NCBI RefSeq assembly: GCF_030499515.1
Contig: NZ_JASTWJ010000001.1
Location: 6,366,001 to 6,430,000 of the forward strand
DNA length: 64,000 nt
Direction: 5' to 3'
Origin: Streptomyces sp. DT2A-34
Lineage (GTDB): Bacteria > Actinomycetota > Actinomycetes > Streptomycetales > Streptomycetaceae
Below are positions 52,561 to 59,236 of the stretch, one piece after another (position 1 is the stretch's first letter; each line of letters begins with the position of its first letter). A model generated the notes under the pieces. It worked only from the letters and a program-made list of their open reading frames with translations, was not told the origin of the DNA and ran no database searches. Made by a program: the position numbers and the translations under genes.

Positions 52561-52856
52561 CTGTCGGTGCGCCGCCAGGGATTCGAGCCCCGGACCCGCT
52601 GATGCTGCATTCCCCGGGGGGTAACCCCCGGACCCCCAGCCGCCCCTGCAATGCCGGGGAAACCTCGTCCCAAAGGCGAAGGCCCCCCGCGGTTGCGAGA
52701 GGCCTTCACTGTCGGTGCGCCGCCAGGGATTCGAGCCCCGGACCCGCTGATGCTGCATTCCCCGGGGGGTAACCCCCGGACCCCCAGCCGCCCCTGCAAT
52801 GCCGGGGAAACCTCGTCCCAAAGGCGAAGGCCCCCCGCGGTTGCGAGAGGCCTTCA
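52561..52856 (-). repeat. Two identical 148-bp units with the 3' half of tRNA-Lys (array A)
   Basis: Units start at 52561 and 52709 and are identical over 148 bases. In tRNA sense each has: a GC-rich hairpin segment ending tgcagc, the tRNA-Lys 3' half from the anticodon 3' stem (ATCAGCGGGTC) through T arm and acceptor, then a terminator-like stem (GAAGGCC/GGCCTTC) followed by TTT. The T loop is altered in both copies (GGGGCTCGAATCCC versus GGGGTTCGAGTCCC). They lie directly downstream of an intact tRNA-Lys with the same terminator. They look like relic integration sites or tandem duplications. Confidence 0.92.
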
Positions 52857-52863
52857 CTGTCGG

Positions 52864-52937
52864 TGCGCCGCCAGGGACTCGAACCCCGGACCCGCTGATT
52901 AAGAGTCAGCTGCTCTAACCAACTGAGCTAGCGGCGC
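52864..52937 (-). tRNA. tRNA-Lys (anticodon CTT)
   Basis: A complete cloverleaf: acceptor GCGCCGC/GCGGCGC, D arm GCTCAGTTGGTTAGAGC, anticodon loop CTCTTAA with CTT, T arm with GGTTCGAGTCC, discriminator A. CCA is not encoded (CCG follows). Identical to the tRNA at 59163-59236. A GAAGGCC/GGCCTTC hairpin downstream acts as terminator. Confidence 0.97.
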
Positions 52938-57225: not shown

Positions 57226-58946
57226 ATGGAGTCCAACAGGCGTACGGTCGCGGAACTCGTCGCCGGCCGGTGGGACGACCACCGGCCCGGGCTGTGGTTT
57301 CGAGGGCAGACGCTCACCCATCACCAGGTGGCGGCGGGTGCCGCGGCCCGGGCCGCACTGCTGGCCGACCTGGCGCCGCCCCGCTCGCACGTCGGGGTGC
57401 TGCTCGACAACACGCCCGAGTACCCCCTGTGGCTGAGCGCGGCGGCCCTCGCCCGCGCCGCCGTCGCCGGTACCAATCCGACCCGCCGCGGCCCCGAACT
57501 GGCCCGCGACATCCTGCACACCGAGTGCCGGATCCTGGTCACCGAGCGGGCCCACCTGCCTCTCCTGACCGGCCTCGACCTGCCCGGCGTGCGCCTGCTG
57601 CTGACCGGCACGGCGGAGTACGACGCCCTGCTCGCGCCGTACGCCGACGCCCGGCCCGATGCCGACCGTGCCACCCCGCACGACCGGCTCCTGCTCTACT
57701 TCACCTCCGGCTCGACCGGCGCCCCCAAGGCCGCGATCTGCACCCAGGGGCGGCTGGCGGCGGCCGGGCGTTCACTGGCCGGGCAGTTCGGTGTCCGCCC
57801 CGATGACGTGCACTACATCTGCATGCCGATGTTCCACGGCAACGCGGTGATCGCCGACTGGGCACCCGCCCTGGCGGCCGGCGCGGGCGTGGCGCTGCGG
57901 CGGCGGTTCTCGGCGTCGGGGTTCCTGGCCGACGTACGGCGATATCGGGCGACGTACTTCACCTACGTGGGCCGGGCGATCCAGTACCTCCTCGCCACCG
58001 AGCCGCGCCCCGACGACGGGCCCACACTCCCCCACTCTCGGCTTCGCTCGAGCGGGGGGACCCCCAGCGGCTCGGCTTCGGCACCGAGGCGGGCGCCGTG
58101 GACGCCGCCGCCTTCGAGCGGCGGTTCGGGGTGCGGCTGGTGGAGGGGTACGGCTCGTCGGAGGGCGGGGCGGCCGTGCAGTGGTCGCCGGGGACGCCCG
58201 CGGGGGCCGTGGGGCGGGCGGCGCCCGGGCTCGTCGTACTCGATCCGGAGACCGGTGCGGAGTGTCCGTCGGCCGTCTTCGACGCGGGCGGGCGGCTGGT
58301 CAACGGGGACGAGGCCATCGGGGAGCTGGTCAACCGGGGGCCGAACCCCTTCGAGGGCTACTGGCGCAATCCGGAGGCGGAGGCGGCGCGGCGGCGGGAG
58401 GGCTGGTACTGGACGGGGGATCTGTTCTGCCGGGACGCCGACGGCTATCTGTACTTCGCGGGGCGCGGCGACGACCGGCTCCGGGTCGACGGGGAGAACC
58501 TGTCCGCCGCGATGATCGAGAACATCCTCGACCGGTACGAGGGAGCGGCGGCCGTCGCCGTGTACGCGGTGCCGGATCCGGTGACCGGGGACCAGGTCAT
58601 GGCGACGGTCGCGGGGGACTTCGATCCGGACGGCTTCGCCGGGTTCCTGCAGGCCCAGCCCGATCTGGGGACGAAGATGGCGCCCCGGTTCGTGCGGGTG
58701 GTGGAGCGGATGCCGGTGACCGCCACGAACAAGATCCAGCGGGCGGCGCTGAGGCGGGAGGGGCTGCGGTGCGCCGATCCGGTGTGGTGGCGGCCGGCCG
58801 GGGAGCGGGCGTACCGGAGGCTGACCGAGGCGGACGTCCTGGCATACGTCGAAGGGCCTCTCGCTCCCACGAGAGGCCTTCACTGTCTGTGCGCCGCCAG
58901 GGACTCGAACCCCGGACCCGCTGATGCTGCGTTTCCCGGGGGATGA
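57226..58946 (+). pseudogene. Acyl-CoA synthetase (FadD17-like) broken by a palindromic element, 3' end replaced
   Basis: The first part (57226 to about 58020) has RTVAELVAGRWDDHRPGLWF, LLDNTPEYPLWLSAAALARA, the AMP motif LLLYFTSGSTGAPKAAICTQ, and MFHGNAVIADWAPALAAG. About 45 inserted or replaced bases then shift the frame. The second part resumes as RLGFGTEAGAVDAAAFERRF, LVEGYGSSEGGAAVQWSPGT, WYWTGDLFCRDADGYLYFAG, RVDGENLSAAMIENILDRYE and TATNKIQRAALRREGL. After LTEADVLAYVE the frame runs into the tRNA-Lys array, so the native C terminus is lost. Two independent lesions make it a firm pseudogene. Confidence 0.88.
58026..58066. mobile_element. MITE/REP-like palindromic element inside the fadD-like gene
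   Basis: ACTCCCCCACTCTCGG and CTCGAGCGGGGGGACCCCCA surround cttcg; CTCCCCC and GGGGGGA form the outer arms. I recognise it as a common Streptomyces intergenic palindrome. It sits between the DDG and RLGFG codons of the synthetase and causes the frameshift. Confidence 0.72.
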
Positions 58947-59155
58947 CCCCGGACCCCCAGCCGCCTTGCCGGGCCCGTCTCAAACGCGAAGGCCCCTCGC
59001 TCCCACGAGAGGCCTTCACTGTCTGTGCGCCGCCAGGGACTCGAACCCCGGACCCGCTGATGCTGCGTTTCCCGGGGGATGACCCCCGGACCCCCAGCCG
59101 CCTTGCCGGGCCCGTCTCAAAGGCGAAGGCCCCTCGCTCCCACGAGAGGCCTTCA
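58883..59155 (-). repeat. Two tandem 136/137-bp units with the 3' half of tRNA-Lys (array B)
   Basis: Units start at 58883 and 59019, differing by one C and a few bases. The plan is the same as array A: a hairpin segment (gggggtccggggg...ccgggaaacgcagc in tRNA sense), the tRNA-Lys 3' half from ATCAGCGGGTC on, then a terminator stem GAAGGCC/GGCCTTC. Here the T loop is identical to the tRNA. The linker differs from array A, but the gcagcATCAGC junction is shared. The distal end (58,851) abuts the truncated fadD-like gene. Confidence 0.92.
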
Positions 59156-59162
59156 CTGTCTG

Positions 59163-59236
59163 TGCGCCGCCAGGGACTCGAACCCCGGACCCGCTGATTA
59201 AGAGTCAGCTGCTCTAACCAACTGAGCTAGCGGCGC
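59163..59236 (-). tRNA. tRNA-Lys (anticodon CTT), second copy
   Basis: Identical over 74 bases to the tRNA at 52864-52937: acceptor GCGCCGC/GCGGCGC, anticodon loop CTCTTAA, GGTTCGAGTCC T arm, discriminator A, no encoded CCA. Confidence 0.97.

Follow-up and report, generated by a model that had tools for sequence, protein, structure and literature searches.

The partial copies of tRNA-Lys(CTT) that stand behind tRNA-Lys genes of Streptomyces are one case of a wider pattern in this genus, in which a short hairpin behind a gene is followed by a second copy of the tail of that gene. With a probability of roughly two in three, we attribute this pattern to a short hairpin element whose insertion brings about a long duplication of the gene's tail, and to recombination that then multiplies, homogenises and spreads the resulting units. 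What looked like a local tRNA oddity thereby becomes a process that can be counted, since its edge is exact and it has both a target motif and a folded element. Should the insertion step be confirmed, the hairpin would represent mobile DNA that leaves its target unharmed because the tail of the gene is doubled, and it would open a route by which the 3′ ends and terminators of genes can be swapped between species.

Partial copies behind tRNA-Lys genes

The window, by which we mean the whole stretch of 64,000 nucleotides that was analysed, harbors two complete tRNA-Lys(CTT) genes on the minus strand, one at 59162..59236 (locus B; ARAGORN, Rfam tRNA score of 68.4 bits) and one at 52862..52937 (locus A; ARAGORN). 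The gene body is the same in both, in agreement with an earlier note on this DNA that had called the two genes identical. On the minus strand, the gene of locus B is followed by two units, each made up of a terminator, a spacer, a hairpin ending in GCAGC and the 3′ half of the tRNA. Specifically, a terminator hairpin behind the gene (GAAGGCCTCTCGTGGGAGCGAGGGGCCTTC, 59125..59154, seen in the sequence and in folds) is followed by a hairpin element of 40 nt (GCGG-CTGGGGGTCCGGGGGTCATCCCCCGG-GAAACGCAGC, 59062..59101, recognised from the sequence and the family pattern) and, flush with its CAGC, by the first partial copy (59026..59061). Then come the terminator hairpin of unit 1 (58988..59017, from the sequence), a second hairpin element of 39 nt, one G shorter than the first (58926..58964), the second partial copy, again flush with CAGC (58890..58925), and a distal terminator (58851..58881). 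Each partial copy thus consists of the last 36 nt of the tRNA (ATCAGC...GGCGCA) with a terminator hairpin, and is preceded by the hairpin ending in GCAGC. The spacings were measured as 137 and 136 nt, so that the array of two downstream copies with a period of 136/137, as described in the earlier note, is real. Array A, also on the minus strand, repeats the arrangement of array B at a spacing of 148/148, and the common plan claimed for the two arrays therefore holds: its hairpin elements lie at 52752..52791 (unit 1) and 52604..52643 (unit 2), and the partial copies that follow them at 52716..52751 (A1) and 52568..52603 (A2). A1 and A2 have two T-arm changes in common, which the complete tRNA does not carry.

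Two additions can be made to this description. Outside the window there is a third tRNA-Lys locus (C) with one partial copy, such that the source genome (two contigs, 10.3 Mb) carries three tRNA-Lys loci with two, two and one partial copies. A 25-nt pattern from the 3′ half (ATCAGCGGGTCCGGGGYTCGARTCC, at most three mismatches) found 8 matches in this 10.3-Mb genome, all of them at the three tRNA-Lys loci, and none when the pattern was read backward across the same genome, which excludes a chance origin of the partial copies. The second addition is that the hairpin with the "gcagc" end is dispersed. The reading of the junction "gcagc" as tRNA sequence was rejected, since it is the end of this dispersed hairpin.

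A pattern for complete tRNA-Lys(CTT) together with partial copies had matches in 293 of 295 genomes of the genus, mostly three each. For the partial copies, we searched 392 genomes of the genus, our own included, with any base but A permitted before ATCAGC, a search that is blind to edges with A at this place and to shorter common blocks. It gave 77 matches in 33 genomes, 76 of them with C before ATCAGC; the 77th (G278) is a different tRNA, which leaves tRNA-Lys partial copies in 32 of the 392 genomes, i.e., in 31 besides our own. At the 30 loci that were read, the hairpin is flush at ATCAGC in all matches but two, namely G278 and a fragment in G063 that is inverted; in L017 and L027 the flush hairpin has a longer loop. 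The G063 fragment (L033) is an additional, inverted partial copy that lies beside an array and has no hairpin. The presence of CAGC-edged partial copies at three loci of our own genome and in 31 others of the 392 supports the earlier suggestion of a repeated process, as opposed to one accident.

A scan of named genomes returned 86 stretches with 113 junctions in total. Eighty of the stretches were listed by name, 78 of these from Streptomyces, and the species with arrays include S. canus, S. cyaneus, S. lincolnensis, S. pseudovenezuelae, S. longispororuber and S. alboflavus. The stretches from the two other organisms, a Miltoncostaeales MAG and Rhizobacter, contain no hairpin, and their matches look like chance. 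At 102 of the remaining 111 junctions the hairpin was recognised by pattern; at the other nine, the hairpin is degenerate or has a longer loop, or the contig ends there. Fusions of the hairpin to a T-loop gave 20 matches in 150 genomes, namely 17 at tRNA-Lys and 3 that are not tRNA, and no other tRNA gene with such a fusion was among them.

When the flanks of tRNA-Lys loci are compared across Streptomyces, as the earlier note had proposed, the number of units is seen to vary, with 0 to 5 partial copies. Among 195 distinct loci that were read, 75 have one partial copy, 20 have two, 2 have three, and 98 have none by pattern. These 97 array loci and 98 loci without a partial copy do not represent a frequency, because many loci were fetched on account of a match, and the pattern misses a changed partial copy with its hairpin in at least three loci of the 98 (L057, L126, L201); the set moreover omits some loci, with L160 and arrays cut by contig ends lying partly outside it. 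All 121 partial copies in the loci read directly follow CAGC, and 111 of them match the tRNA 3′ half exactly, though the search patterns favour exact, well-kept copies. In the 97 array loci, partial copies lie 121–297 bp apart; in a few further arrays at contig ends the spacing could not be judged.

In this context, the idea that the partial copies are attachment sites has to be considered. According to it, elements of the AICE or prophage type entered tRNA-Lys, duplicated its 3′ half and shrank to mini-units. A 3′ half that starts in the anticodon arm is a usual identity block of tRNA-targeting integrases. A 3′ end that is re-supplied keeps the gene intact in both situations, empty sites exist, and a Frankia tRNA-Lys gene is reported to hold tandem AICEs (PMC3218068). 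However, we regard this explanation as quite unlikely. No integrase-bearing element was seen, either at the tRNA-Lys edges searched for in the 392 genomes or upstream of 12 hairpins, and the 121–297 bp between partial copies are too short for an element body and contain neither such a body nor an integrase gene. Furthermore, C precedes ATCAGC at all 76 edges from a search that covers neither A-edges nor shorter blocks, and the hairpin forms the edge in those that were read, with the exception of the inverted fragment in G063. The same hairpin is also found at many unrelated genes, and one integrase would not explain the same edge at many unrelated protein genes. The arrays also warn against taking every tRNA 3′ half downstream of a tRNA gene for an attachment site.

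Empty counterparts of the arrays are found in relatives. Past the last partial copy of array B, 260 nt are approximately 95% alike to locus B of an array-free relative, Streptomyces sp. cf386 (L145), where no partial copy is present, and the distal terminator of array B aligns with the terminator of L145. For locus C of our genome, the comparison with the array-free L066 gave 184/200 (score only). The distal terminator of array B is crossed by a convergent fadD-like frame, which in the window as well as in L145 and L058 goes on into antisense tRNA-Lys sequence. What it reads there in the window is a partial copy, and it does so in a different frame owing to the unequal lengths of the terminators, so that only the last residues, past the terminator, differ. 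The earlier proposal that the distal edge of array B replaces the end of the fadD-like gene is not upheld by this comparison, as the gene up to the terminator has not been replaced and the array-free L145 has an equivalent read-through. The fadD-like gene of the window (57226-58946) is itself split over two frames, and between them, around 58030-58066, lies a palindrome-like sequence, CCCCCACTCTCGGCTTCGCTCGAGCGGGGGGACCCCCA, which is perhaps another dispersed hairpin.

A dispersed hairpin with a doubled gene tail

The assumption that the process is tied to tRNA-Lys did not survive the inspection of other loci, since the hairpin and its flush edge are also present at the ends of many protein genes. 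The element can be written as YCKG-CYGGGGGTCYGGGGGTYRTCCCCCRG-GNANRCAGC, measures about 40 nt and is loose at several places. Without its foot, the pattern has 15 copies in our own genome, 5 of them inside arrays; the 10 copies outside arrays have the CAGC end at the expected place in seven cases, CAG in two and neither in L043. The strict hairpin is found in 99 of 246 and in 58 of 132 genomes of the genus (two partly overlapping draws), and in 0 of 15 genomes from other genera of the order. No hairpin was found on phages, and on plasmids there was one Streptomyces record, with 66% of the query covered. Three spellings of the hairpin core had no match, and no description of it was found, in a body of literature without preprints and most subscription papers.

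From 247 hairpins, 213 fit a fixed pattern and 191 of these are unique (117 dispersed, 74 at tRNA-Lys). In this set, the stem pair Y10-R covaries (C-G 168, T-A 20, C-A 2, T-G 1), and so do Y2 and the third loop base, L3, which cross the stem (T-A 88, C-G 82, T-G 20, C-A 1). Pairing of the A-T, G-C or G-T kind between Y2 and L3 is obeyed in 190 of the 191 hairpins. Their mutual information is 0.565, compared with at most 0.013 in 30 shuffles, a comparison that ignores relatedness, such that there are fewer independent changes than the cells suggest. That two pairs covary, one of them across the stem, suggests that the hairpin has a form as folded RNA or single-stranded DNA with a loop contact, and the pairing strand is probably the sense strand of the upstream gene, because T-G is tolerated and C-A is not. 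Folding energies, calculated with a tool that cannot draw the crossing Y2-L3 pair, were no better than those of shuffled sequences for one dispersed copy (z -0.54), and better than these for two array copies (z -3.14 and -1.99).

The covariation could also mean that the units are kept for a function, be it as extra terminators or as a stable decoy RNA composed of the hairpin and the tRNA 3′ half, and the exactness of 111 of the 121 partial copies, albeit favoured by the search patterns, would agree with this. Nonetheless, we find such a function very unlikely: the partial copies of our own array A have two T-arm changes, a tRNA-Lys partial copy is present in 32 of 392 genomes by the pattern used, the same arrangement also occurs at protein genes, and the mismatch rate is flat along the duplicated stretch at these protein-gene sites.

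Direct repeats surround the dispersed copies of the hairpin. A second copy (X′) of the upstream sequence X, starting flush at CAGC, is present at 84 of 134 distinct hairpins away from tRNA-Lys, a set that leaves aside hairpins at tRNA-Lys itself, those whose flanks are short and those that repeat another one almost identically. The corresponding figure for unrelated flank pairs is 3 of 2000 when same-gene pairs across species are left out, and 24 of 800 in a first swapped-flank control that still contains such pairs. A second sample, consisting of 20 sites in listing order from genomes new to the second draw, with array repeats counted once, showed a flush X′ at 13 of its 20 loci, or 15 of 22 elements; its control with swapped flanks, in which same-gene pairs are again present, gave 26 of 458. 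By the same test, X′ was not detected at 50 of the 134 hairpins and at 7 of the 20 loci. The edge is exact, in that 0 or 1 further bases match to its left in 81 of the 84 cases.

In many cases X corresponds to the 3′ end of a protein gene. An open frame stops between the start of X and the hairpin in 69 of 82 unique cases (one frame in 59, several in 10, none in the other 13), as compared to 116 of 820 random windows of equal lengths. For 56 of the 82, the stop falls within the duplication or closes it, and in 53 of the 59 single-frame cases the first base of X is also the first base of a codon. To the left of X, TTC or TTT is found in 60 of 81 non-array cases, which are not independent because they represent 31 distinct sites, some common to several species; counted by distinct site, the figure is 19 of 31, the other 12 having no TTY at the edge, and the TTY background is 663/39932. 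At tRNA-Lys, the sequence left of X is CTCTTA. A guide-RNA mechanism, with TTC as a PAM-like motif, was considered and rejected, since mismatches are flat along X and show no seed.

Judging from the encoded tails, the recurrent sites are presumably murA, an ABC-transporter ATPase (LEDVFLELTGKELRS), an ABC permease and GTPase Der. For murA, which matched in 60 of 61 genomes, tails were taken from the best 30 matches, and 28 tails of 250 nt each were read: 25, our own included, have a plain gene end, and three (G024, G014, G060) carry the hairpin with X′. In L263, a stretch resembling the native terminator lies behind X′, hence X′ is probably the original end of the gene and X with the hairpin the later arrival, or else the two have recombined since then. 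L242 has an apparent murA tail followed by the hairpin without X′. The sequence N between X and the hairpin is often not repeated behind X′, such that a clean target duplication is present at some sites only. Hairpins without X′ were also noted in L203, L271, L279, L303 and L313, where they seem to occupy one conserved place before GATGGTACCCCC-like sequence.

Proposed insertion of the element and its relation to known systems

From these arrangements we infer that the hairpin is the mobile part and inserts, in which order the events followed one another and what recombination contributed, as follows. A non-coding, dispersed hairpin of about 40 nt would insert at the 3′ end of a gene and give rise to the order gene tail X, in some cases N, hairpin, CAGC and, flush with the latter, X′. 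X′ would begin where the target usually has TTC or TTT just before it (TTA at the tRNA), and the gene would be left intact because its tail is then present twice. At tRNA-Lys, X would be the 3′ half, together with the terminator in many of the B loci.

The element has a fixed 3′ end at CAGC, a variable 5′ side and a long duplication of variable length at a short motif, which is what one looks for in a target-primed retro-element. Target-primed copying of an RNA would leave these marks, and so would a staggered double nick with insertion of the hairpin. In a rather doubtful elaboration, the hairpin would form the 3′ terminus of a short RNA, and a nick behind TTY near the end of a transcription unit would be the place where this RNA is copied into DNA. 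The enzyme would then switch to the end of the gene's own transcript, making the element a bacterial counterpart of a SINE that rewrites the tails of genes and thereby spares the gene it enters. Reverse transcriptases (RVT_1) show no association with the element, being present in 6 of 12 carriers and in 4 of 12 genomes without strict hairpins, and these copies could be relics. Y1 transposases (PF01797) are found in 2 of 8 genomes (G000, G161), where they could likewise be relics, and are absent from the hairpin carriers G104, G060 and G144, so that no link to the element is apparent among the 8 genomes. Upstream of 12 elements (ten over 18–19 kb, two over 1.7 and 2.7 kb), no distant X′ scored above shuffled sequence, and neither a mobilising enzyme nor a long partner element was found around these 12.

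Several known systems resemble the proposed element in part. REP elements, with their RAYT (IS200-IS605 Y1) transposases, are short dispersed non-coding palindromes with a short foot beside the stem; they insert without target duplication, and the foot is a conserved tetranucleotide of the GTAG type. The Streptomyces element is likewise a short dispersed palindrome outside coding sequence with a foot, but this foot is CAGC (GCTG on the other strand), which was part of the search pattern, and a long flush duplication of the gene tail accompanies it. MITEs are short, non-coding and dispersed and are flanked by a duplication, with terminal inverted repeats from an autonomous transposon. The hairpin has the former properties in common with them; its duplication, however, is long and variable, whereas that of MITEs is a short target duplication of fixed length, and no parent transposon was seen upstream of the 12 hairpins (ten over 18–19 kb). 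In CRISPR arrays, palindromic repeats alternate with other sequence, as does the palindromic repeat of the tRNA-Lys arrays, but the "spacer" of the latter is the neighbouring gene's own tail, repeated.

Probable recombination and exchange between copies

Once X is present twice, recombination between the copies could add or remove units, within the range of 0 to 5 partial copies, and keep the copies of an array alike. Unit identity within arrays ranges from 0.74 to 1.00 and is at least 0.90 in 25 of 26 pairs (the exception is L016, 0.743), and between loci it has a median of 0.70 (400 sampled pairs). In L160 (S. plumbidurans), five partial copies are found in which the unit types alternate, with spacings of 169/173/169/173. 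A T-arm change of its tRNA is common to the first and the third partial copy only, and this recurrence points to exchange between the tRNA and the partial copies.

Variable copy number and the likeness of units inside an array, L160 included, could also result from a tandem duplication by slippage at the tRNA terminator, with the hairpin as a bystander terminator, followed by concerted evolution. There is a precedent in E. coli tyrT/tyrV (the rttR/tpr region), where tandem 178-bp units of variable copy number lie behind the tRNA and the tRNA 3′ end is contained in every unit. It comprises the last 19 nt there, as opposed to 36 nt in the Streptomyces arrays, no common dispersed hairpin was noticed at the joint, and to our knowledge repeats of the tyrT type are limited to that locus. 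For Salmonella Paratyphi A, a 175-bp VNTR at the rtT RNA is reported to differ between two strains (PMC2658671). Slippage alone is an unlikely explanation of the Streptomyces arrays, however, because the joint falls exactly at CAGC in genes that are unrelated to one another. Moreover, if the hairpin were part of the duplicated block, it would be expected behind the last partial copy, and this is the case at few loci: a hairpin-like stretch lies within the next 400 nt at 8 loci, and there it is mostly followed by a further or degenerate partial copy.

Returning to insertion followed by recombination, the block of X, hairpin and X′ could be transferred from one paralogous locus to another and from species to species, X′ serving as the second homology arm. 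In the 59 single-frame cases, X and X′ are distinguished by 62 nucleotides at synonymous and 18 at non-synonymous positions. This bias led us to reject simple decay of X′, since one would expect the opposite of a dead copy. Because the differences are mostly synonymous, it rather seems that tails have been exchanged with functional ones, either within the genome or with relatives.

In 27 type-B arrays, the stretch that the last internal unit and the distal copy have in common, counted from ATCAGC, measures 70–86 nt in 17, where it stops at or near the end of the terminator, at most 54 nt in 7 and at least 96 nt in 3. At A and C loci, the internal terminator is often unlike the distal, locus-like terminator, and this difference suggests that units have moved between tRNA-Lys loci.

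A second exchangeable module (CGATGGCGATGGCGAGG...CTCGCCATCG, followed by GCGCGGCTTCGCCGCGCG-like sequence) was observed behind tRNA-Lys in several species, and the loci that carry it are not all of one type. It lies directly behind tRNA-Lys in L092, L093, L098 and L113, and behind the last partial copy in L011, L020, L077 and L083. Finally, L024 has the promoter side of locus C and a downstream side of the locus A type, as if two tRNA-Lys loci had recombined.
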